A stretch of 64,000 nt of DNA from Pseudooceanicola antarcticus. GTDB taxonomy: Bacteria; Pseudomonadota; Alphaproteobacteria; Rhodobacterales; Rhodobacteraceae. Positions 26,985 through 46,487 of this stretch are shown piece by piece (the first letter of the stretch is position 1; each line of letters starts with the position of its first letter). The position numbers and the translations under genes are program-made. The stretch spans positions 1 to 64,000 of the forward strand of contig NZ_OBEA01000003.1 of NCBI RefSeq assembly GCF_900215355.1, read 5' to 3'. The notes beneath the pieces are model-generated. The model saw nothing but the letters and a program-made list of their open reading frames with translations, did no database searches and had not been told where the DNA came from.

Positions 26985-28292
26985 TCAGACGAAGCGATTG
27001 ACGTAGTTTTCAAGGATCTCCTGGCGGCCCGAACGGGGCTCGGGGTTGATCCCTTCCGAGAGCACACGCTCGGTGATCGAGGCGAGGTCGCTGTTCAGCA
27101 TCGCGCTGGCCTCGGGCGTCTGCCAGCCGGCATAGCGGGTGTTCAGGGCCTCATCGAGACCACCGTCCTCGATCATCGCCGCCGCGGCCTTCAGGCCACG
27201 GGCGCAGATGTCCATGCCACCGACATGGGCGGCGATCAGGTCCTCGGCCTCCAGCGACTGCCGGCGCAGCTTGGCGTCGAAGTTGGTGCCGCCCGAGGTG
27301 AAGCCTCCGGACTTGAGCACGTAGTAATAGGCCAGCGCGACTTCCGGCGTGTTGTTGGGGAACTGGTCGGTATCCCAGCCGGACTGGTAGTCGTTGCGGT
27401 TCATGTCGATCGAGCCGAGCATGTTCTCGGAGGTGGCCAGTGCCAGCTCGTGCTCGAAGGAATGGCCGGCAAGGATCGCGTGGCCCTGTTCGATGTTCAG
27501 CTTCACCTCGTTTTCCAGCCCGTACTTGCGCAGGAAGCCGATGCATGTGGCCACGTCGAAGTCGTACTGGTGCTTGGAGGGTTCCTGGGGCTTGGGCTCG
27601 ACAAGGATCTGACCTTTAAAGCCGATCTTGTGCTTGTAGTCGACGACCATGTGCAGGAAGCGGGCCATGTGGTCCAGCTCCTGGGTGAGGTCCGTGTTCA
27701 GCAGGGTCTCGTAGCCTTCGCGGCCGCCCCAGAGCACGTAGTTCGCACCGCCCAGCTTGTGGGTCGCATCCATGCAGGATTTCACCGTGGCGGCGGCGAC
27801 GGCGAAGACGTCGGGGTCGGGGTTGGTCGAGGCGCCCGACATCCAGCGGCGGTGGCTGAACATGTTGGCGGTGCCCCAGAGAAGCTTGGTGCGGCTGCCT
27901 TCCATCTTCTCGCCGATGTAATCGGTGATCTCTTCAAGCGTGGCGAGGTTGCCGGCGAAGTCGCCCTGGTCGGGGCGGATGTCGGCGTCGTGCCAGCAGA
28001 AGAACGGAGCGTCCAGGATATCGAACATCTCGAAGGCGGCATCGGCCTTCAGCTTGGCGCGGCCCATGTCGTCCTGGGGGTGCCAGGGACGCACGAAGGT
28101 CGGTCCGCCGAAGGGGTCACCGCCTTCCCAGGCGAAGCTGTGCCAGTAGGCGACGGCGAAGCGCAGGTGGTCTTCCATGCGCTTGCCCATGACGACTTCG
28201 TCCGGGTTGTAGTGGCGGAAGGCCAGCGGATTGGTGCTGTCCGTGCCTTCATAGGCGACCTTGGAGATACCGTCGAAGAATCCTGTGCTCAC
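26985..28292 (-). CDS. xylA: Xylose isomerase
   Basis: The 435-residue TIM-barrel enzyme converts D-xylose to D-xylulose using divalent metal. Typical segments are [10 protein letters not shown] with the catalytic His, [46 protein letters not shown], and the metal-binding [17 protein letters not shown] and [20 protein letters not shown]. The length is that of the long class II isomerases. It is the fourth gene of the xylose operon, after the transporter genes, with a 77-base gap from xylG. Confidence 0.97.
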
Positions 28293-28369
28293 TGTCTTGG
28301 TCCTTGGCAGAGTGGGAGATGCGCCCCGGACGGACCGAGGCGCAGGGGAGGAGTTGATTTTTGACCCGG

Positions 28370-29133
<764 letters not shown>

Positions 29134-29134
<1 letters not shown>

Positions 29135-30426
29135 TACACGTCTCCGGTTCGTTTGCGGTAGATGATGTCGATCAGCACGGCCAGCACGAGGACACCGCCG
29201 ACGACGATGTTCTGGAAGGGCGCGTCGACGCCGACCATGGCCATGCCGGATTGCAGCGACTGCATGATCAGCGCGCCGAGGATGGCGCCGTAGATCGTGC
29301 CGATGCCACCCGCCAGCGCGGTGCCGCCGATGACGGCCGCCGCGATCACGCGCAGCTCGTCCAGGGTGCCGATGTCATTGGAGTGGAACGACAGGCGCGC
29401 GGAGGCGACCATGCCGGCCAGCGCGCAGAGCACGCCCATCATGGCGAAGACCTTGACCGTCAGCAGCCGGGTGTTGATGCCGGAAAGCTCTGCCGCGTCG
29501 GGGTTGCCGCCGGTGGCGAAGATGTAGCGCCCCAGGCGGGTGCGGCGCGCCACCACGGTCATCACCACGGCGATGGCGATCAGGATCAGCACCGAGAAGG
29601 GGATGCCGTAGCCCTGGGTGAAGCCTTCGGGCATGACCTCGCCACGGGCCTCGAATTCGCGGGCCAGCACGCGGGTCGGCACGGAATAGGCGTTGAGCGT
29701 GGCCACGAAGCCGAGGATCAGCGCCGCGGCGAGGGCCATCAGCGTGGCTTCCGCCCAGACGGGCTTGACCGGGAACTCGTGGGCGATGCGGGCCCGGCGG
29801 GCCTGCAGGATGCCGTAGCAGGCTGCGGCCACGGCGAGGGCGCCGATGATCCAGCTCGCGGTGGTGCCGAGGGTGCCGCCGATGCCGCCGAGCTTCTGGA
29901 AGGTGTCGTCGAGCGGGCCGATGGTCTGACCGCTGGTCAGGTACCAGGCCACGTTGCGCCAGACGAGGAAGCCTCCGAGCGTCACGATGAAGGCGGGAAT
30001 GGTGAGATAGCCGACCAGCCAGCCATGGAACGCCCCGATCAGACCCCCTGCAAGCAGGCCGATGACGATCGCCACGGGTGCCATCAGCGGGCTGCCGTAG
30101 TCGATCCCGAGGCTGGGCAGGAACTGGGTCTGCGTCATGGCCATGATGGCCGAGCAGGTCGCCAGCAGCGCGCCGACGCTGAGGTCGATGTGGCGGGTCA
30201 CGATGATGAAGACCATGCCGGTGGCCATGATGGCCACGCTGACGGTCTGGATCGTCAGGTTGAAGATGTTACGCGGAGTGAGAAACCGACCTTCGGTCAG
30301 GACGTTGAACACGATGCAGACCAGAACGAATGCGCCCACCATGCCCAGCAGGCGGGTATCGAATTCGAGTGTCTTGAAGATGTTCTTTCGTCCGATCGAC
30401 GTGCCGGAGGCGCTGGCGTCTGCCAT
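29134..30426 (-). CDS. xylH: Xylose ABC transporter, permease
   Basis: The 430-residue inner-membrane protein is a CUT2-family permease of the XylH type, longer than RbsC because of an extra central region. About ten membrane segments are visible, and [19 protein letters not shown] and [24 protein letters not shown] are typical of the family. ATG 30426 has CGAGGTC in front. It lies after xylF across a 75-base gap that contains a hairpin, and overlaps xylG by one base. Confidence 0.93.
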
Positions 30427-30458
30427 TGTGACCTCGGTTCTGAATGTAGGGGCTGTGA

Positions 30459-30480
30459 CCCCCGCCGGTGATGGCGGAGG
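30459..30480 (-). other. Stem-loop between xylF and xylH
   Basis: On the minus strand CCTCCGCC pairs with GGCGGGGG (one G-T pair) around a six-base loop. It may protect the xylF message or partly terminate transcription, giving more binding protein than permease. Confidence 0.5.
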
Positions 30481-30501
30481 CCACATGCGTTAAGGACAGT
30501 A

Positions 30502-31515
30502 TCAGTTACAGGGAGCGGGGCCGTCAGTGACGCCCTGGCACAGAGCGTCCTGCTCGATCCAGCCGGCTTCGACGACAACGGTCAGGTTGTCGGCGGTCAC
30601 CGGAACCGGCTCCAGGAACTTGGCGGTCAGCGTGGTGCCTGCGGGCGAAGTCCACTCGGCCGCGCCTTCGATGTCCGAGGCGTCGGTGCCGCTGGCCAGC
30701 GCAACGGCGATCTCGCCGGCGGCCTTGCCGAGCGCGCGGGCGTCTTTCCAGACCGAGACGGTCTGGGTGCCACGTGCCACGCGGTTCAGGGCGGCATGGT
30801 CACCATCCTGACCCGAGACCGGCAGACCTTCGAGGCCCTGTGCGGTCAGCGCGGCCACGACGCCACCGGCGGTGCCATCGTTGGAGGCCACGACCGCGTC
30901 GACGTTGTTGTCGTTGGCGGTCAGGATCTGCTCCATGTTGCGCTGTGCGTTCGCCGGCAGCCAGCCGTCGGTGTAGGCTTCGTCGACGATGGTGATGTCA
31001 CCGGCGTCGATGGCGGCCTGCAGCACTTCTTGCTGACCACCGCGCAGGAAGTCCGCGTTGGGATCGGTGGGCGAGCCCTTGATCATCACGTAGTTGCCGG
31101 TCGGCTGCGCCTCGAAGACGGCACGGGCCTGCATGCGGCCGACTTCGACGTTGTCGAAGGTCAGGTAGAAGGCGCGCGGGTCCTCGATCAGGCGGTCATA
31201 TGCGATGACCGGGATGCCTTCGTTGGCGGCGGCGGTCACGGCGGGAATGATGGCCTGGGTGTCCTGCGCCAGGATCACCAGCACGTCGGCGCCCTGGGCG
31301 ACGAGGCTTTCCACGTCCGACAGCTGCTTGGACGACGACGATTGCGCGTCGGCCGAGATGTAGTCTCCGCCCGCGGCTTCGATGGCGGCGACGATGGCCG
31401 CCTCGTCGGTCTTCCAGCGCTCTTCCTGGAAATTGGACCAGCTCACGCCGACGGTCTGCGCGAATGCACCGGTGCCAAGCACCATGGCAATCGCAGTTGT
31501 TGCGATCAGTTTCAT
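30502..31515 (-). CDS. xylF: D-xylose ABC transporter, substrate-binding protein
   Basis: The 337-residue periplasmic protein binds D-xylose for the XylGH importer. A short signal peptide (about residues 1-19, cut near AFAQ) is followed by [20 protein letters not shown], a hallmark of Xyl[17 protein letters not shown] and [16 protein letters not shown] are further ligand-lobe segments, and [12 protein letters not shown] is the usual late motif. GGGAGGA precedes ATG 31515. It is the first gene of xylFHGAB plus the peroxidase gene, divergent from xylR, with candidate operators in the 184-base gap. Confidence 0.95.
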
Positions 31516-31566
31516 TGGTTTCCTCCCAAATATCCGACCGGTTGTTTCGATCGGTAAGCTCGTTGT

Positions 31567-31578
31567 CCAAGCATGATT
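31567..31578. promoter_or_regulatory. Candidate XylR-binding half-site near xylF
   Basis: CCAAGCATGATT repeats 11 of 12 bases of the sequence at 31671-31682. The two lie 104 bp apart, close to ten helical turns, one nearer xylF and one nearer xylR. Confidence 0.4.
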
Positions 31579-31667
31579 CGTACCTCCCCGAATCGCCTTG
31601 GCATCGCCATCTTGCACATTTCCTCCGGGGACAAAATTTATTTTTTTGCCCGCTGAAAAAAAGCTGG

Positions 31668-31683
31668 AAACCAAGCATGGTTT
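31668..31683. promoter_or_regulatory. Candidate XylR operator
   Basis: AAACCAAGCATGGTTT is a perfect inverted repeat, AAACCA-AGCA-TGGTTT, and runs into a second palindrome TTTGATCAAA at 31681-31690. It lies 16 bases before the xylR start, where a repressor could control xylR and, through the second copy at 31567, xylF. Confidence 0.5.
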
Positions 31684-31699
31684 GATCAAAGGTTGCCGG

Positions 31700-32917
31700 A
31701 TGATGAAGGAACGCACTTTGCACCACGATCTCGATGCCCGCGAAATGACCCGGCTGCGGGCCTTCCAGTGCATCCGGGAGGCGGGGCAGATTTCACGCAC
31801 CGATATCGCCAAGGCGCTCAACAGCAGCCCGGCGACGGTGACCTCGGCCTGTGGCGCCCTGCTGGAGGCCGGGCTGATCCGCGACGTGGAGGCCGAACGA
31901 ACAGATGCCACCCAGCGGGGCCGCCCGCGGGTGATGCTGGAAGTGAACGGAGAGGCGCTTGCCGTGGCCGGGATCAAGGTCGCGCGCCATGCGATCCATG
32001 TCACGGTGGTGGATTTCAAGGGTGTAGAAATCGGCTCTCATCTATCGCCTCTGGCCGCATCCTGCATGCCGGCAGAGGCACTGGTCATGGCGGTGCGCCA
32101 GGCACTGGATGACGCCTGCGAGAAACTGGGGCTGTCGCTGGACGCGGTGGCCGGGGTGGCGCTTGGCCTGCCGGGGTTCATCAACGGAGAGACCGGCTTC
32201 ATGCATTGGTCCTCGTCGGTGCGGGAACGCAATGTCGATTTCATGCCGCTCTTTGCCCGGCACCTGCCATGCCCGGCCTTCCTGGAGAACGACGCAAACC
32301 TCGTGGCCAAGGCCGAGCAGTTCTTCGGCGCCGGGCGCGGGCTGCGCAACTTCCTGGTGGTGACCATCGAGCATGGTGTCGGCATGGGCATCGTGCAGGA
32401 TGGCCAGCTTTACCGCGGCGAGCGCGGCTGCGGTGCCGAATTCGGCCATATGAAGGTGCAGTTTGAAGGCGCGGTCTGCCAATGCGGCCAGCGCGGCTGC
32501 CTCGAGGCCTACGTCGGGGATTACGCGCTGATCCGTGATGCCTCGGTCGGGCGCCAGGGCGATGCCTACAAGAGCCTCACCGACATCCTGGACGCGGCCC
32601 GCGCCGGCGACCGGCTGTCCGGCGAGGTGCTGGAGCGCGCCTCAAAGGTGCTGGGCGTGGCGCTGGCCAGCCTGGTGAACCTCTTCGATCCCGAGCATAT
32701 CGTCATCGCCCGCCTGCGTCCCCGCTTTGACGAGGCCCACACCCAGGCCATGCTTGATGCGCTCAAGCGCAATACGGTGCAGGTGGATGCGCCGCTGCCG
32801 GGGATCACGGTGCGCAACCTGGACCAGAAGATGTGGGCGCGCGGGGCCGCGGCCCATGGCATCGAAAGGGTCTCGATCCTGAAAATTCGCGCGCGAGGAG
32901 ATCAAGATGCTGCGTAA
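31700..32917 (+). CDS. xylR: ROK-family xylose repressor
   Basis: The 405-residue protein has an N-terminal winged helix (about residues 20-75, [30 protein letters not shown]) and a C-terminal ROK sugar-kinase-like domain with the Zn-binding motif [12 protein letters not shown] (about 257-268) and the EHGVGMGIV and GAEFGHM segments. ROK repressors of this kind release DNA when xylose is bound. AGG and two tandem ATGs (31700 and 31703) mark the start. It is divergent from xylF and overlaps the next plus-strand gene by 11 bases. Confidence 0.92.
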
Positions 32918-37864: not shown

Positions 37865-37885
37865 TGTCAATTTCCGGCATTGACA
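37865..37885. promoter_or_regulatory. Back-to-back -35 elements of divergent promoters
   Basis: GTCAAT-TTCCGGC-ATTGAC is a perfect inverted repeat (37866-37884). Its arms give TTGACA on the plus strand (37880-37885) and TTGACA on the minus strand (37870-37865), facing away from each other. The -10 regions are poor on both sides, as is common for regulated promoters. Confidence 0.5.
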
Positions 37886-37938: not shown

Positions 37939-39021
37939 GTGAGAGCACTGGAAGAACTTCTGCAGGCCTTCGAGAGGCGTGCAGACGGGAGGAACGATGC
38001 GAGCGGCGCGCCGCTGGTCGGGATCTTTGGCGACGGCTTGCCCGAAGCGCTGATCCATGCGGCCGGCGCCACCCCGGTCGAGGTCAAGGCACCGCCGCTG
38101 GCCGATGCGACCACCGGGCCGCAGCGGCCCGAGGTGACCGAGATCGCAGAGCCTTTCCTTGATGATTTTGCCGCCCGGTTCCTGCATCGGCTGGCCGATG
38201 GCGCCTTCGATCACATGGCGATGGTGGTCTTTGCCCGCGATGACGTGGCCGCGCTGACCGCCTACCAATATGCCACCGAGATGCGCCGCCTCGGGATGTT
38301 GCCCGCCACCGGGCCGCGCCTGCACCTGTGGTCGCTCCTGCACAGCGAGGGCGCCGCCGCGGAGCGCTTCAACCGGACCGAGCTGGACCGGCTGGAGAGC
38401 GCCTTGCAGCAGGTGACGGGGCAGGGGATCGACACCGACGCCCTGGCCCGCGCACAGCAGCAGGAGGCCCGCCGCCTGGCCGCGCTTGCGCGTCTCGCCT
38501 CCCATCCGCAGGCCTTCGCCCTGCGCAACGCGGGCCGCTGGCTGGAGGCCGGACACCACGCCAACCTGCTGGACAGCCTGCCCGCGCCGGAGCCCGCAAC
38601 CGGCCGCCGTATCGGTCTCGTCGGCACGGCCTGTGATCTGCCGGTGCTGCACCAGCTGGCCCAGGAGCTGGGTCACGTCGCTGCCGACCTGACCCCCTAT
38701 GGCGACATCTGGCCCGGCAATCACGCCGGTCCCGAGGGGGTCGGGGCGCTGATCGACAGCGTCGCCACCCACCCGCTTCACCTGCGCGCCAACCCGGCCT
38801 CGAAGTTCGACACCGCCCTGGCCGACGGGCTGGAGGGCTGCGACCTGGTGCTGGCCGCTGTGGATCGCAATGATGATGGTTTCGGCTGGGATCTGCCGGC
38901 GCTCTCTGCGCTCTGCAAGGCGCGCGGCACGCCGCTGGTGATGCTTGGCTTCCGTCCCTTCCGCCCCGATGCCGCCTGGCTCGAAGCCGCCCGCAACAAG
39001 ATCGCCGAGGTGCTCTCATGA
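37939..39021 (+). CDS. 2-hydroxyacyl-CoA dehydratase-like protein, C-type subunit, apparently without cluster cysteines
   Basis: The 360-residue protein follows the HgdB/FldB/HadC-type fold: VGIFGDGLPEALIHAAGATPVEV at the start, a central FDHMAMVVFARDDVAAL strand, and a C-terminal half beginning GRRIGLVGTACDLPVL. In the known enzymes a CD pair after the central strand and a further Cys near the C-terminus bind a [4Fe-4S] cluster. Here the first place reads RDD, and the late one DRNDDG; only three Cys exist, at other places (GTACD, GCDLV, ALCKA). The start is GTG 37939 with GGGAGGAG upstream. It overlaps the next gene by 4 bases. The reaction is unknown. Confidence 0.75.
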   Translation: MRALEELLQAFERRADGRNDASGAPLVGIFGDGLPEALIHAAGATPVEVKAPPLADATTGPQRPEVTEIAEPFLDDFAARFLHRLADGAFDHMAMVVFARDDVAALTAYQYATEMRRLGMLPATGPRLHLWSLLHSEGAAAERFNRTELDRLESALQQVTGQGIDTDALARAQQQEARRLAALARLASHPQAFALRNAGRWLEAGHHANLLDSLPAPEPATGRRIGLVGTACDLPVLHQLAQELGHVAADLTPYGDIWPGNHAGPEGVGALIDSVATHPLHLRANPASKFDTALADGLEGCDLVLAAVDRNDDGFGWDLPALSALCKARGTPLVMLGFRPFRPDAAWLEAARNKIAEVLS

Positions 39022-40268
39022 CCCGCGCCGCCGAAGCCGCCGCCTATCAGAAGGACTGGCTGAAGGGGCTGCGTCAGCAGATCACCTCCGGTGCCTCCTT
39101 CGCCTTCGTCAACGCCGATACCCCCCATGAGATCTTCCATTTCATGGATATGCCCATGGTGACCAACCAATGGTGGTCCGCGGTCATCGCCGCCAAGCAG
39201 CAGGCCCCCTATTTCTTCGACTGGATGGAGGACGAGGGCTTCCACGGCCACCTGCCGAAGTACAGCTCGCTGCCGCTGGTGGCGCAGCTCGAGGGCGATC
39301 CCTCGCGCCAGCCCTGGGGCGGTCTGCCCGCCCCCGCGCTGCTCTGCGCCCGGCAGAGCTCGGATGAACACGGGCGGATCTTCCGCCGCTGGTCCGAGCT
39401 GACCGGCGCACCGCTGCATCTGCTTTCGGCCCCCGGCGTCGCCGATCCGGCGCCCAACTGGTGGGAGATGGCCCGCGAGAACTGGGAAGAGCTTTATGGC
39501 ACCGACCGGCTCGACCTGTTGCAGGCCGAGATCGAAGAGCTGATCACCGCGGTCGAGGACCTCACCGGGCGCAGCTTCGACCGCGAGGGTTTTGCCGTCT
39601 ACATGGACAAGATCGACCGGATGGAGAAGATGCTGGGCGAGGTCTCGGACCTGATCGCCTCGGCACCTAAGGTCCCCATGGGTATCGCCGAACAGATGCC
39701 CAACGTGATGATCCCGCAGTGGCATCGCGGCTCGGACTGGGCGCTTTCGCACGTGAAGGGTTTCCGCGATGAGGTGGCCGAGCGCATCGAGGCCGGTCAT
39801 GCCGAATGCCCGAACGAGAAGATCCGCATGATGTGGATCGGGGCGGGGCTGTGGTTCGATACGTCCTTCTATCGCGCCTTCGAGGAAACCCATGGCGCGA
39901 CCTTCGCCTGGTCGATGTATCTGCCCTTCGCCTCCGACGGCTACATCCGCGCCGATCACGGCGACCCGGTGCGGGCGCTGGCGGCACGGGTCTCGGCGAT
40001 GAACGAACAGCTGCACCAGCCGCCCTGGGTCAATGAATGGCTGGTGGCCCAGGCAAGGAAGTACCGCATCGACGTGGCGCTGATGCTGATCCCCGAGCAC
40101 GACCGCTTCTCGGGCTATGGCTCTCTCTTTGCCAAGCGGGCGCTCGAACAGGCGGGCGTGAAGGTGATCGAGATCTGGTCGGACATGGTCGACCCGCGCG
40201 CCTGGGACCGCGAGGCCGCGGTGGCGCAGGTCACGGCAGCACTGGACGAAATGGAGGTAACGGCATGA
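39018..40268 (+). CDS. 2-hydroxyacyl-CoA dehydratase-like protein, B-type subunit, apparently without cluster cysteines
   Basis: The 416-residue partner carries the family start FAFVNADTPHEIFHFMDMPMVTNQWWSA and the C-terminal MLIPEHDRFSGYGSLFAKRALEQAGVKVIEIWSDMVDPR. Known B subunits have three cluster cysteines, in a C-x-Y segment, a TCD segment and a late C-R segment. The matching places here read PKYSSLP, RQSSDEHG and EHDRFSG. Only two Cys are present (LLCARQ and AECPNE). It is coupled to both neighbours by ATGA overlaps. With its partner it probably forms a heterodimer that handles CoA thioesters, but radical dehydration seems excluded if the alignment holds. Confidence 0.75.
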   Translation: MTRAAEAAAYQKDWLKGLRQQITSGASFAFVNADTPHEIFHFMDMPMVTNQWWSAVIAAKQQAPYFFDWMEDEGFHGHLPKYSSLPLVAQLEGDPSRQPWGGLPAPALLCARQSSDEHGRIFRRWSELTGAPLHLLSAPGVADPAPNWWEMARENWEELYGTDRLDLLQAEIEELITAVEDLTGRSFDREGFAVYMDKIDRMEKMLGEVSDLIASAPKVPMGIAEQMPNVMIPQWHRGSDWALSHVKGFRDEVAERIEAGHAECPNEKIRMMWIGAGLWFDTSFYRAFEETHGATFAWSMYLPFASDGYIRADHGDPVRALAARVSAMNEQLHQPPWVNEWLVAQARKYRIDVALMLIPEHDRFSGYGSLFAKRALEQAGVKVIEIWSDMVDPRAWDREAAVAQVTAALDEMEVTA

Positions 40269-41407
40269 GCGGAGCTCTGGACGGTCTGAAGATCGCCGAT
40301 TTCAGCTGGGTGGGCGCAGGCCCCCGCGCCACCAAGGATCTCGCCGACAATGGCGCGCTGGTGGTGAAGATCGAAAGCGCCAAGCGGCTGGACCTCGGCC
40401 GCATGTCGCCCCCCTTCGCGCGGGGCGAACGCAAGAACCACGATGCCTCGGCCTTCTTTGCCCAGACCAATACCTCGAAGAAGAGCGTCACCATCAACCT
40501 CTCGGACCCGCGCGGGATCGAGGTGGCCAAGAAGCTGGTGGCCTGGGCGGATGTCGTGGTCGAGAATTTCGGCCCCGGTTTCATGGATCGCATCGGTCTC
40601 TCCTGGGAGGTGCTGCAGGAGGTGAAGCCGGATATCATCCTGGCCTCCGTCTCGGTGGCCGGCAAGACCGGCCCGATGGCGGGCTTCCGCGGCTACGGCA
40701 ATGCCGCCGCCGCCATGTCGGGCCACGCGGACATGACCGGCTGGCCGGGCAGCGAGCCGCATATGCCGCCGCTCGCCTATGGCGACGTGGTCGCGCCGAT
40801 GATGCTGACCGTGGCGATCCTCTCGGCGCTGGAGCACCGCGACCGTACCGGGAAGGGCTGTCACGTCGATGTCAGCCAGATCGAGGCGATGGTGCATGTG
40901 GCAGGCGACCTCTTTGCCGAGATGCCCGCCGACAAACCCGCCAATCACGACCCGCTGATCGCCCCGCATGGGGTCTTCCCGGTGGCCGGAGAGGACGCCT
41001 GGATCGCCATCGCCTGCGAGGCCCGCGGCTCTGCCGAGGCACTGGCCAGCGAACTGGGTCTGGACGAGATCAGCGATGAGGCCATCGCCGCGGCCACCCG
41101 TCTGCGCGACGGCGAGGACCTGGCGCAGGCGCTTTGTGACGCCGGTGTCGCGGCGGCCATGGTGCTGGATGGCAAGGGCGTGTCGGAAAGCGCCGACCTG
41201 GAGGCGGCCTCGCATTTCGTCATCGTGGATCACCCGGTGCTTGGCCGCGCGCATATGCCCGCGCCGCCCTACCAGCTGCCCCTGACCCCCTGGCACGTGG
41301 GCCCCGCGCCCTGCCTTGGTGAACACAACCGCGAGATCTTCGTCGACACGCTTGGCATGGCGGCCGAGGACCTGGCGGCACTGCAGGAAGAGGGGGTGCT
41401 GGCATGA
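40265..41407 (+). CDS. CaiB/BaiF family CoA-transferase
   Basis: The 380-residue protein is a family III CoA-transferase. The catalytic residue is Asp174 in LAYGDVVAPMM, set 21 residues before the conserved TGKG turn as in formyl-CoA transferase. LADNGALVVKIES, KKSVTINLSDPRG and VVENFGPGFMDRIGL are typical. It overlaps both neighbours by 4 bases (ATGA) within the dehydratase-like operon, so it most likely charges or recycles the CoA on that pathway's acid. Substrate unknown. Confidence 0.87.
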   Translation: MSGALDGLKIADFSWVGAGPRATKDLADNGALVVKIESAKRLDLGRMSPPFARGERKNHDASAFFAQTNTSKKSVTINLSDPRGIEVAKKLVAWADVVVENFGPGFMDRIGLSWEVLQEVKPDIILASVSVAGKTGPMAGFRGYGNAAAAMSGHADMTGWPGSEPHMPPLAYGDVVAPMMLTVAILSALEHRDRTGKGCHVDVSQIEAMVHVAGDLFAEMPADKPANHDPLIAPHGVFPVAGEDAWIAIACEARGSAEALASELGLDEISDEAIAAATRLRDGEDLAQALCDAGVAAAMVLDGKGVSESADLEAASHFVIVDHPVLGRAHMPAPPYQLPLTPWHVGPAPCLGEHNREIFVDTLGMAAEDLAALQEEGVLA

Positions 41408-42405
41408 AGCTTCTCGAAGGATTGAAAGTCGTCGTTCTGGCCGACCGGCTGGTGGATTTCGGCGGCGTGATGCTGGCCCGCATGGGGGCCGAGGTCGTAC
41501 TGGCCGGGGCCTGCGAGATGACCGCGCCGCGCAAGGCGGCCTGGCACCATGGCATGACGCCCTCGAAGGCGCCCCTGGCCGAGCTCCTGGCCGATGCCGA
41601 TGTGCTGCTCGAGGATCGCCGCAGCGAGGACTGGCCGGATCTGAAGGGCGTGACCCTGCCCGAGACCCTGGTCCACGTGGTGGCGACGGGCTACCCCGAG
41701 GAGACGCCGCAGCGTCCCGCCACGGATCTGACGCTGATGGCGCAATCGGGGCTGATGCATGTGATCGGCACCGCGGAGGCTCCGCCCCTGCGTCTGCCGG
41801 GCGAACAGGCCTATGCGCTGACCGGCATCCAGGTGGCCACCGCCGCCCTGATGGGGCTGCGCGCGCGGCGCCTGACCGGCAAGGGCCAGCGCACCCCGCT
41901 TTCGGCGCTGCAATCGGCAACGCTGTCGAACTACCGCGAGGCGGTGATGTACGAATGGACCGGCCGCATCGGGCGACGGGTCGGCAACCGGCTGGTGCGC
42001 GGCAGCTCCGGCGTGCGGCAGGTCTGGCCCTGCAGCGACGGTTTCGTCACCTGGTCGATGATCGACAACCCCGGCATGATGCGTGCCCTGGTGCGGGTGA
42101 TGGTCGAGCAGGGCGCCGCCGGAGAGCTGGCCGAGGTCGACTGGGGCGCGATCCTGGTGGCCGATACCGACCAGGAGGTGATCGACCGCTGGCAGGGCAT
42201 CGTGGCCAAGTTCTTTGCCCGCCATGACCGCGCCACCCTGGCGGGCTGGTCGCTGGAACATGGCTGGGGCCTCTCGGCGATCACCAAGCTTTCGGAGGTG
42301 CCCGAAAGCCCGCAGATGAAGGCGCGCGGCATCTTCCCCGATGGCGGCACCCTGCCGACGGGTCCGCTCTTTGCCGTGCATCCGGCGAAAGGAGGGGCGG
42401 CATGA
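41404..42405 (+). CDS. CaiB/BaiF-like protein with catalytic Asp replaced
   Basis: The 333-residue protein is shorter than its two relatives on either side (380 and 398). It lacks most of the loop between the first Rossmann strands and the ENFRPG region, which here reads DVLLEDRRSEDWPDL. At the place of the catalytic Asp, 21 residues before TGKGQ, there is Tyr137 in GEQAYALTG. It may be an inactive partner subunit that forms heterodimers with a neighbouring CoA-transferase; family III enzymes form interlocked dimers. It is coupled on both sides by ATGA overlaps, and no frameshift is seen, so it is a maintained gene. Confidence 0.78.
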   Translation: MKLLEGLKVVVLADRLVDFGGVMLARMGAEVVLAGACEMTAPRKAAWHHGMTPSKAPLAELLADADVLLEDRRSEDWPDLKGVTLPETLVHVVATGYPEETPQRPATDLTLMAQSGLMHVIGTAEAPPLRLPGEQAYALTGIQVATAALMGLRARRLTGKGQRTPLSALQSATLSNYREAVMYEWTGRIGRRVGNRLVRGSSGVRQVWPCSDGFVTWSMIDNPGMMRALVRVMVEQGAAGELAEVDWGAILVADTDQEVIDRWQGIVAKFFARHDRATLAGWSLEHGWGLSAITKLSEVPESPQMKARGIFPDGGTLPTGPLFAVHPAKGGAA

Positions 42406-44691: not shown

Positions 44692-45195
44692 ATGCTGAAA
44701 TTACTGGATACGGGCCTTGGATGGGTGGTGCGGGGCACCACGCTCTTCGGCATCTTCGCGCTGATGGCGCTCATGGGGCTGATCGTGGTGACGGTGGTCT
44801 TCCGCGCCATCGGGATCGCCTTCCCCGGCACCTATGTGCTGTCCGAGCTGCTGCTGATCCCCACCATCACGCTTTCGCTGGCCTATGCGGCCTGGAGCGG
44901 CGCCCATACGCGGGTCGAGCTGGTCACCCAGCTGCTGCCCAAGCGTGGCGCGGGGGTGATCGACGGGCTGATGCTGCTGGCGGGCAGCGTCTTCTGGGTC
45001 TTCGTGATCTGGGCCGGTATCCGCAACGCCCTGCACCACGCCGCGCAGGGAGAGAAGACCCCCATGCTGGACATCCCGGTGGCCCCCTTCCGCTGGCTGC
45101 TGGTGTTCGCCGTGGGCCTGCTGATTGCCGTCCTGGTACTGCGTGCAGCCCAGGCCATCACCGGCAAGACGCCGGTTGAGGAGACCCAAGAATGA
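44692..45195 (+). CDS. TRAP transporter, small membrane subunit (DctQ family)
   Basis: The 167-residue inner-membrane protein has four membrane segments at about residues 15-38, 50-68, 88-108 and 130-150, and the GTYVLSELLLIPTITLSLAYAAWSGAHTRVELV segment common to DctQ proteins. GAAGGAC precedes ATG 44692. It overlaps the large subunit by 4 bases. With DctM it makes the Na+- or H+-driven membrane part of the importer. Confidence 0.9.
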   Translation: MLKLLDTGLGWVVRGTTLFGIFALMALMGLIVVTVVFRAIGIAFPGTYVLSELLLIPTITLSLAYAAWSGAHTRVELVTQLLPKRGAGVIDGLMLLAGSVFWVFVIWAGIRNALHHAAQGEKTPMLDIPVAPFRWLLVFAVGLLIAVLVLRAAQAITGKTPVEETQE

Positions 45196-46487
45196 CCCCG
45201 ATCGTAGCGGGCCTCGTCGGCCTCGCATTCCTCTTCGTCTTCCTCGTTGCGGGGATGCCCATCGGTTTCGCCATGGGCGTGACCGGCGCGGTCGGCTTTG
45301 CCTTCCTGCTGAGCTTCCACGCGGCGGTGATCAAGGTCGGCGTGATCAGCTTCGACATCGCCACCAATTACGCCATCGGGACGGTGCCGCTGTTCCTCTT
45401 CATGGCGCATGTGCTCTTTGCCTCGGGGATCGGCAAGGATCTCTACGATTTCGCCGCCCGCGCCATCGGGCACAAGCGCGGCGGGCTGGCCATGGCCACC
45501 GTCGGCGCCTCGGCGGGCTTTGCCGCCGTCAACGCCAGCTCGCTGGCCACCACGGCGACCATGGGTCTCGTTGCGCTGCCCGAGATGCGCAAGCACGGCT
45601 ACTCGCTGCCGCTGGCCACCGGCGCCGTGGCCGCGGGCGGCACCATCGGCAGCCTGATCCCGCCCTCGGGGATGTTCATCATCTACGGCATCCTGACCGA
45701 GACCTCGATCGGCGACATGTTCGCCGCCGGTATCATCCCCGGCGTCATGCTGGCGCTGTTCTACATGGCGGTGATCTGGATTCGCTGCCGCATCAACCCC
45801 GAGGCCGGGCCCGCCGGTCCGCGCTACAGCCTGGCGGAACGCTGGGAGGGGCTGAAGAAGACCGCCGACGTGATCGTACTCTTCGGCTTCGTCATGGGGG
45901 GCATCATCTGGGGCCTCTTCACCCCGACCGAGGCCGGCGCCATGGGCGCCTTCGGAGCACTGCTCATCGCCGGGGCCCGTGGCCGCCTCAGCTATGCCAC
46001 GCTGGTCGATGCGATCTACGAGACCTTCAAGACCACCGGCATGATCTTCGGCATCCTCTTCGGGGCCCTGGTCTTCAATTCCTTCATCACCGTCACCACG
46101 ATTCCGCTGCAGATCGCGGGCTGGGTGACCAGCAGCCAGCTGGCGCCGATCGCGGTGTTGCTGGTGGTGCTGCTGATCTACTTCTTCCTGGGCATGATCC
46201 TGGATGCCTCGGCGATGATGACGCTGACCGTGCCGCTGTTCTTCCCGCTGATCACCGGGCTGGGCTACGACGCCGTGCTCTTCGGGGTGCTGGTGGTGCG
46301 GATGACCGAGATCGCGCTGATCACGCCACCCGTGGGGATGAATGTCTATGTGCTCTCGGGGGTGGCGCGGGACGTGCCGCTGTCGAAGATCTTCCTGGGC
46401 ACCGCGCCCTTCGTGGTGGCCGACGTCATCCACGTGGCCCTGCTGATCAGCATCCCCGCATTGGTGCTCTGGCTACCCTCTCTCTAG
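45192..46487 (+). CDS. TRAP transporter, large membrane subunit (DctM family)
   Basis: The 431-residue inner-membrane protein has about 11-12 membrane segments and typical DctM sequence: GMPIGFAMGVTGAVGFAFL, PLFLFMAHVLFASGIGKDLYDFA, the hairpin GTIGSLIPPSGMFIIYGILTETSIGDMFAAGIIPG, and the late ALITPPVGMNVYVLSGVA. It is the transport channel. It is coupled to DctQ (ATGA) and followed by a good terminator, closing the operon that starts at 37939. Confidence 0.94.
   Translation: MTPIVAGLVGLAFLFVFLVAGMPIGFAMGVTGAVGFAFLLSFHAAVIKVGVISFDIATNYAIGTVPLFLFMAHVLFASGIGKDLYDFAARAIGHKRGGLAMATVGASAGFAAVNASSLATTATMGLVALPEMRKHGYSLPLATGAVAAGGTIGSLIPPSGMFIIYGILTETSIGDMFAAGIIPGVMLALFYMAVIWIRCRINPEAGPAGPRYSLAERWEGLKKTADVIVLFGFVMGGIIWGLFTPTEAGAMGAFGALLIAGARGRLSYATLVDAIYETFKTTGMIFGILFGALVFNSFITVTTIPLQIAGWVTSSQLAPIAVLLVVLLIYFFLGMILDASAMMTLTVPLFFPLITGLGYDAVLFGVLVVRMTEIALITPPVGMNVYVLSGVARDVPLSKIFLGTAPFVVADVIHVALLISIPALVLWLPSL

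Follow-up and report, generated by a model that had tools for sequence, protein, structure and literature searches.

In the 64,000-nucleotide stretch of Pseudooceanicola antarcticus DNA analyzed here (positions 1 to 64,000 of contig NZ_OBEA01000003.1, hereafter the window), two adjacent genes encode a C-type subunit (P0001) and a B-type subunit (P0002) with the fold of the benzoyl-coenzyme A (CoA) reductases and 2-hydroxyacyl-CoA dehydratases (BCR/HAD), in which the cysteines that hold the iron-sulfur clusters of the known enzymes are replaced by other residues. The BCR/HAD enzymes are anaerobic radical enzymes, and the cluster and a dedicated activator are their defining traits. The explanation that we favor, to which we would give an even chance, is that the pair forms a BCR/HAD-fold heterodimer with neither of the two [4Fe-4S] clusters nor the ATP-driven activator, working as a non-radical CoA-thioester enzyme in oxygen-tolerant acid catabolism. 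Were this the case, the pair would exemplify the reuse of a radical scaffold under air, in a coherent subfamily that usually has no activator, and entries that databases label, for instance, "2-hydroxyacyl-CoA dehydratase family protein" would suggest the wrong metabolism.

The two open reading frames (ORFs), first pointed out in a preliminary description of this DNA, are both present where it had placed them and overlap by 4 bases. Both proteins score above the gathering cut-off of 28.4 bits of PF06050 (HGD-D) and are the only matches to this family in the genome at an E value of ≤0.001, while neither reaches any NCBIfam equivalog cut-off. The AlphaFold model of P0002 (predicted local distance difference test [pLDDT] score, 92.8) has MbdO as its best match in the PDB, with a template modeling (TM) score of 0.83, followed at the top by BzdO and HadB, and that of P0001 (pLDDT, 93.5) has HadC and BzdN as its top matches. 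Moreover, every PDB match at an E value of ≤0.001, 20 for each model, belongs to the BCR, HAD, or double-cubane families. Judging from these models, both proteins are confidently predicted to adopt the BCR/HAD fold, and the pair is a variant within the known family PF06050. No relatives of P0002 were matched in phages or viral contigs.

An extract of PMC11971306 gives Cys95, Cys128, and Cys380 as the ligands of the active-site [4Fe-4S] cluster of BzdO and reports that the cluster water is flanked by Glu65 and His131, and an extract of PMC11574389 describes, for component D of 2-hydroxyacyl-CoA dehydratase, a [4Fe-4S] cluster held by three cysteines in each of the alpha and beta subunits. P0002 was aligned to the solved chains of BzdO, MbdO, and HadB through a hidden Markov model profile built from 46 hand-picked B-subunit sequences. 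The three BzdO ligand columns, which hold cysteines in MbdO and HadB as well, correspond in P0002 to P80 (in PKYSSLP), S115 (in QSSDEHG), and D362 (in EHDRFSG), and its remaining cysteines, C110 and C264, lie outside these columns; the three-cysteine site of the dehydratase alpha subunit is therefore absent. His131 of BzdO, typical of class I benzoyl-CoA reductases, is conserved as H118, and Q51 occupies the column that holds Glu in MbdO and HadB, which probably corresponds, on the basis of the alignment, to Glu65 of BzdO, so that the glutamate of the benzoyl-CoA reductases would be missing. A selenocysteine at a ligand position was considered for a match in genome G222 with one TGA and was rejected, the TGA being the stop codon at the end of the gene.

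For the C-type subunit, a profile from 43 sequences was aligned to BzdN and HadC, and the columns tested were the four that hold cysteine in the canonical Rhizobium C-subunit P0010 and match HadC cysteines. In P0001 these columns read D75, F81, D102 (within RDD), and D312 (within RNDD), and none of the three cysteines of the protein (C232, C301, and C326) falls in a ligand column. It follows that P0001 presents neither the three-cysteine cluster site of the dehydratase beta subunit nor the six cysteines of the [8Fe-9S] double-cubane cluster of BzdN and the double-cubane cluster protein (DCCP). The same holds for the four columns in the subfamily, where cysteine occurs at none of them in any of 88 C-subunits, and position 312 is Asp in 73 and Glu in 15. 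The preliminary description had located the ligand positions of both subunits from the family pattern; the alignments to BzdO, MbdO, HadB, HadC, and BzdN show that its motifs lie in the right places, with no remaining cysteine of either subunit at a cluster position.

The absence of an activator gene, which had been noted for the window, extends to the whole genome (97.4% complete), where the activator family TIGR00241 has 0 matches; the ATP-dependent activase (component A) of the 2-hydroxyacyl-CoA dehydratases is accordingly missing. The single PF01869 match in this genome was excluded as an activator because of its amino-sugar kinase context, its neighbors being genes that we take to be murQ-like and nanE-like. 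We then searched 49 hand-picked genomes or records for TIGR00241, one being the plasmid of the canonical control and the other 48 bearing the pair; positive controls were included in both genome searches. At an E value of ≤0.001, 39 of the 48 pair-bearing genomes gave no match, and the activator is thus not a constant companion of the pair. The nine others include two deltaproteobacterial genomes, those of loci L063 and L066, with 9 and 10 matches, and one from the window's clade (Mesobacterium pallidum, locus L053), whose activator was rejected as the partner of the pair since it is encoded (L110) beside a different PF06050 gene, one in which the three cysteines are intact. In a control on 398 genomes of the phylum, PF06050 was found above the cut-off in 8: TIGR00241 directly adjoins the PF06050 genes in all four genomes that carry other members of the family (two pairs and two single genes), and it is present in none of the four that carry the subfamily. 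Furthermore, tblastn with two activators detected none in the flanks of 92 family loci and did detect that of the canonical control (L015).

The relatives of the pair show how the former cluster pocket varies. The genome collection reported 341 loci, and the best 80 of the 341 were fetched. By record title, the subfamily occurs in Rhodobacterales, Rhizobiales, Sphingomonadales, Caulobacterales, Gamma- and Deltaproteobacteria, Acidobacteria, and Bacteroidota (we assume some of the orders from the genus names); many members are from metagenome-assembled genomes, including those of the last two phyla. It is rare, with 7 of 292 genomes of the order and 4 of 398 of the phylum; a fifth match in the phylum (G516) was not counted, as this protein (L119) is only distantly related and has the three cysteines. 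Of 92 family loci, some of which are cut by contig ends, 90 gave a match to the C-subunit, the other two being L063 and the contig-edge locus L103. In one other genome (locus L118, also L124; G661:C1, about 119 to 122 kb), the C- and B-type subunits form a single polypeptide, encoded by an 853-aa open frame (795 aa from the first ATG) that is Cys free and adjoins a CaiB gene, and this natural fusion argues for a physical complex of the two subunits.

The tree of the B-subunit comprised 92 rows, 86 from the subfamily and 6 others, and was built with the trait columns left out; since its rows are related, the counts that follow are not counts of independent events. Cys80, Cys83, and Cys115 are all present in 43 of the 86 B-subunits and all absent in the other 43, with no mixed case, and Cys117 joins them in 40 of the 43, giving a CxxC...CxC arrangement. 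Thus, many relatives outside the window's clade carry cysteines in the B pocket, and the wider subfamily is not cysteine free, so that the question raised in the preliminary description, whether the cysteines are always absent, is answered in the negative. The third canonical ligand, at position 362, is a cysteine only in L063 and L066 among these 43; the other 41 have N, T, S, H, or M there. In L063 (10004-11233) and L066 (8551-9780), where the three canonical cysteines are kept, the Glu beside the cluster is already Gln. Three canonical cysteines, CxxC...CxC, and none constitute a natural series for probing the role of the cluster.

The window falls within a 39-row clade (Shimodaira-Hasegawa approximate likelihood ratio test [SH-aLRT] support, 100). 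Two pocket positions are invariant over its 39 rows, S at 83 and D at 362, and a third, 117, is always acidic (D or E). Position 80 holds A or P, position 115 holds S or A, and position 118 holds H in 34 rows and Q in the remaining 5. The Cys-free rows outside this clade are L014, L074, L118, and L023. Several independent losses of the cysteines were considered and dropped, as one change suffices for 41 Cys-free rows once six long-branch rows are left out; these 41 rows then lie on one side of a branch whose support, 84.6, is below the mark of 95, and L118 and L023 could not be placed. The Q51 column holds Gln in 83 of the 86 subfamily rows and Glu in all six others. In addition, R112, W235, and E289 are nearly fixed in the 86 B-subunits and absent from the six other rows, and R237 and Y301, also nearly fixed, are missing from all but one of the six. 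B identity within the window's clade is 58 to 80%, and the ratio of nonsynonymous to synonymous substitution rates (dN/dS) in nine hand-picked pairs is 0.05 to 0.23 for B and 0.12 to 0.47 for C, always below 1, which indicates purifying selection that is clear on the B-subunit and weaker on the C-subunit.

Among the systems of known structure, HadBC (PDB 3o3m-3o3o) resembles the pair in both folds (TM, 0.81 to 0.86 for P0002 against HadB and 0.68 to 0.75 for P0001 against HadC), in having two homologous subunits, and in the presence of a CaiB gene in the operon, HadA being a class III CoA-transferase. Different from HadBC, neither subunit of the window's pair retains the cluster cysteines, the genome encodes no activator, and Gln replaces the Glu beside the cluster. 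P0002 is closest, in sequence as in structure, to BzdNO (8s02) and MbdON (9g87), and its H118 lies at His131 of BzdO; however, the ligands of BzdO are P, S, and D in the window, the Glu is Gln51, no cysteine occupies the C-type columns tested, and a TIGR00241-type activator is lacking. DCCP (6eno and 7yyl) has the same fold and is matched by the C-type profile, but P0001 has no cysteine at the tested columns. FldABC-I phenyllactate dehydratase likewise combines a class III CoA-transferase with a PF06050 pair acting on an acid, whereas the pair of the window lacks activator and cluster cysteines. Because defining features of both that were tested are missing, the pair should be named neither a 2-hydroxyacyl-CoA dehydratase nor a class I benzoyl-CoA reductase. 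No cluster-less or aerobic PF06050 pair was recognized in the titles and opening lines of abstracts listed by searches of the open-access literature.

The pair stands at the head of an operon with genes for class III CoA-transferases and a tripartite ATP-independent periplasmic (TRAP) importer (Table 1), so that the gene order given in the preliminary description, which spoke of fusion by gene order to CoA-transferases and an acid importer, is right for the window.

Table 1. Position of the pair, its operon, and the divergent genes in the window
Feature	Position	Strand	Remarks
Class III CoA-transferase P0006	36081..37256	-	PF02515, 390 bits
Divergent MarR-family regulator P0007	37348..37818	-	PF12802/PF01047; kept beside the pair in sister operons
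Inverted repeat TGTCAA-N9-TTGACA, candidate MarR operator	37865..37885	.	Between the divergent MarR and C-type genes
C-type (beta/HadC/BzdN-like) subunit P0001	37939..39021	+	360 aa, GTG start; PF06050, 35.2 bits
B-type (alpha/HadB/BzdO-like) subunit P0002	39018..40268	+	416 aa; PF06050, 119.5 bits
Class III CoA-transferase P0003	40265..41407	+	PF02515, 274 bits; start codon overlaps the B-gene stop
Class III CoA-transferase-like P0004, short	41404..42405	+	333 aa; PF02515, 103 bits
Class III CoA-transferase P0005	42402..43598	+	PF02515, 317 bits
TRAP importer binding protein DctP, P0008	43638..44639	+	PF03480, 109 bits
TRAP small permease subunit	44692..45195	+	ORF between DctP and the large permease; start set by eye
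TRAP large permease subunit	45192..46487	+	ORF; 79-80% identity in sister operons L017-L020

The best PDB chain for P0003 is 9fn0_B (182 bits), a subunit of benzylsuccinate CoA-transferase, and the joint-best chain for P0004 is 9fn0_A (43 bits), the other subunit of the same enzyme, with a common Asp-less QAY stretch. P0004 has Tyr in the column where P0003, P0005, and P0006 have Asp, which we take to be the catalytic residue of class III CoA-transferases. An Asp-bearing and an Asp-less CaiB subunit are therefore encoded side by side, as in BbsEF-type enzymes, and the match to different 9fn0 chains together with the Tyr for Asp replacement suggests that P0003 and P0004 make up a class III CoA-transferase of the heteromeric kind. 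This likeness to BbsEF is one of sequence; different from BbsEF, no genes of benzylsuccinate beta-oxidation were seen in the operon, and P0004 is short. On Sphingomonadales plasmids, one gene corresponds to both P0003 and P0004. In loci L012, L013, and L016, two CaiB genes beside the pair are fused, encoding a protein of about 700 aa.

Four further genomes of the family share this operon (L017 to L020), other versions of it occur elsewhere, and the TRAP small permease weakly matches the same place in L018, the query start being slightly misplaced. P0006 homologs occur in 11 of 12 compared loci, the exception being the canonical control. Neighbors were counted by BLAST clusters named after an example in 93 loci, the canonical control included, and the counts are best taken as lower bounds because the automatic gene calls are rough (only one of the four CaiB genes of the window was called): CaiB in at least 82 loci, TRAP large permease in at least 60, MarR in at least 38, and transporters of the major facilitator superfamily (MFS) in at least 21. 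A PGA_cap (CapA-like) gene recurs in at least 30 of the 93 loci. Other recurrent neighbors are esterases (PETase-like, BD-FAE, CocE/PepX, and tannase), MmgE/PrpD, and FAD hydroxylases; cytochrome P450 accounts for 8 of 120 sampled neighbor proteins, and a ring-cleavage dioxygenase lies near the L118 fusion, together with further genes that presumably resemble those of the protocatechuate/beta-ketoadipate pathway. The esterase, P450, hydroxylase, and dioxygenase neighbors, which differ from genome to genome, point to a catabolism that uses O2 and acts on ester-derived, often aromatic acids.

The inverted repeat TGTCAA-N9-TTGACA in the MarR/C-type intergenic region includes TTGACA, a -35-like hexamer. 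It has one copy in the window (0 in 100 shuffles) and one in the 4.23-Mb genome. Other loci have it in the corresponding position; exact matches are present in 20 of 124 loci, from 12 genomes including that of the window (two same-species pairs among them), and the repeat is missing from many family loci. In an alignment of seven hand-picked loci, the palindrome is invariant and is followed by a second invariant stretch, GTTTCCA-N3-T-N-AA. The simplest reading of these sequences is a one-site regulon of the divergent MarR protein, which would bind the repeat.

On these grounds, it is possible to hypothesize the following route. The TRAP importer would take in a carboxylic acid, probably of the aromatic or aryl-alkyl type and derived from an ester (a rosmarinate or aryl-lactate substrate was considered and is left as speculation), and the CaiB proteins would load it with CoA, P0003:P0004 acting as a BbsEF-like heteromer alongside P0005 and P0006. 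The B-subunit would hold the CoA thioester in the former cluster pocket, which by the alignments is lined with fixed acid, amide, and imidazole groups instead of a cluster, and D/E117, H118, and D362, near Gln51, might carry out a non-radical acid-base step (elimination, hydration, isomerization, or cleavage), after which a CaiB protein would transfer the CoA onto the next acid. In this scheme the C-subunit would be a structural or regulatory partner, and MarR would control the operon through the inverted repeat. The ketyl-radical mechanism that an extract of PMC11574389 describes for the family should be unavailable to the pair because the clusters and the activator are missing. A broader evolutionary proposal, which we hold somewhat short of an even chance, is that a radical, oxygen-sensitive Fe-S fold turned into a non-radical CoA-thioester enzyme that tolerates oxygen. 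Its cluster would first have been religated by CxxC...CxC. Later, in a clade whose members are mostly Rhodobacterales and Rhizobiales, a catalytic or metal-binding Asp/Glu-His-Asp site would have taken its place in a block exchange, and the enzyme would now perform an undescribed acyl-CoA step of aerobic catabolism.

Several observations weigh against the non-radical enzyme that we favor. Activator matches do occur in 9 of the 48 pair-bearing genomes, eight of them above the cut-off. The correspondence of Q51 to Glu65 of BzdO is only indirect, because the BzdO alignment begins two residues later and BzdO is one residue longer there, and the pocket distances are likewise taken from homology. 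Fixed residues are not proof of catalysis; D, E, and H are metal capable, so that the pocket might hold a metal or even an Fe-S center. The C-subunit evolves faster than the B-subunit, the two highest C dN/dS values being those of the window's own pairs, and could be dispensable. Finally, the assignment to aromatic acids derives from neighbors that vary between genomes and lie mostly outside the window, and substrate, product, and activity are predictions from sequence.

Two other explanations appear to us about equally improbable, each being unlikely but worth weighing. The pair might be a non-catalytic partner, serving a CoA-transferase complex as scaffold, chaperone, or channeling subunit by binding either the CoA thioester or the CaiB proteins; this would agree with its position next to the CaiB genes, with a start-stop overlap with the next one, with the multiple CaiB genes at some loci, with an operon that has no redox partner, and with the loosely constrained C-subunit, but the near-fixed R112, W235, E289, R237, and Y301 and the coordinated replacement of the pocket seem more than a scaffold needs. 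The preliminary description had left the choice between a different reaction and a binding or scaffold role; this alternative fits overall, and the constraint on the B-subunit with its fixed new pocket residues makes us lean towards catalysis. The pair might instead be a metal or altered-cluster enzyme with Lewis-acid chemistry, based on CxxC...CxC in the sister forms, whose center would be mononuclear Fe or Zn or a four-Cys Fe-S cluster, and, within the clade to which the window belongs, on D/E117, H118, and D362. The all-or-none occurrence of Cys80, Cys83, and Cys115, usually with Cys117, is as expected of one ligated center, and the clade's replacements D362, D/E117, and H/Q118, as well as the acidic residue that all 88 C-subunits have at position 312, are metal capable or compatible with this chemistry; however, the four cysteines could be disulfides or structural, and kinship among the rows inflates the counts, as one loss may explain most Cys-free rows.

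It seems highly improbable that the pair has remained a radical enzyme, a 2-hydroxyacyl-CoA dehydratase or reductase whose cluster is bound by unusual ligands (Asp/Ser) and whose electrons come from an unrecognized donor. The CaiB genes with a PF06050 pair do resemble the Had/Fld gene set minus its activator, and the deltaproteobacterial members L063 and L066 keep the three B cysteines in activator-rich genomes, but in the window neither the three ligands of the B-subunit nor those of the C-subunit are left, Glu is replaced by Gln51, most pair-bearing genomes are activator free, and the neighbors use O2. Least probable of all is a decaying remnant of a canonical pair: the loss of catalytic features and the fast-evolving C-subunit would be in line with decay, but the frames are open, identity among the B-subunits of the clade is high, dN/dS stays below 1 for both genes, and the operon and palindrome are conserved.

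A divergent second copy (L023; G152:C1:2476000-2495900), with 40% identity, was found in a genome that also has a window-type operon; its pocket is Cys free, and it adjoins a PF01144 CoA-transferase and TRAP genes. In the window itself, upstream of the operon (26985-32917), lies what we take to be a D-xylose-like utilization region, with a xylose isomerase-like gene, an ABC sugar transporter, and a ROK-type regulator.

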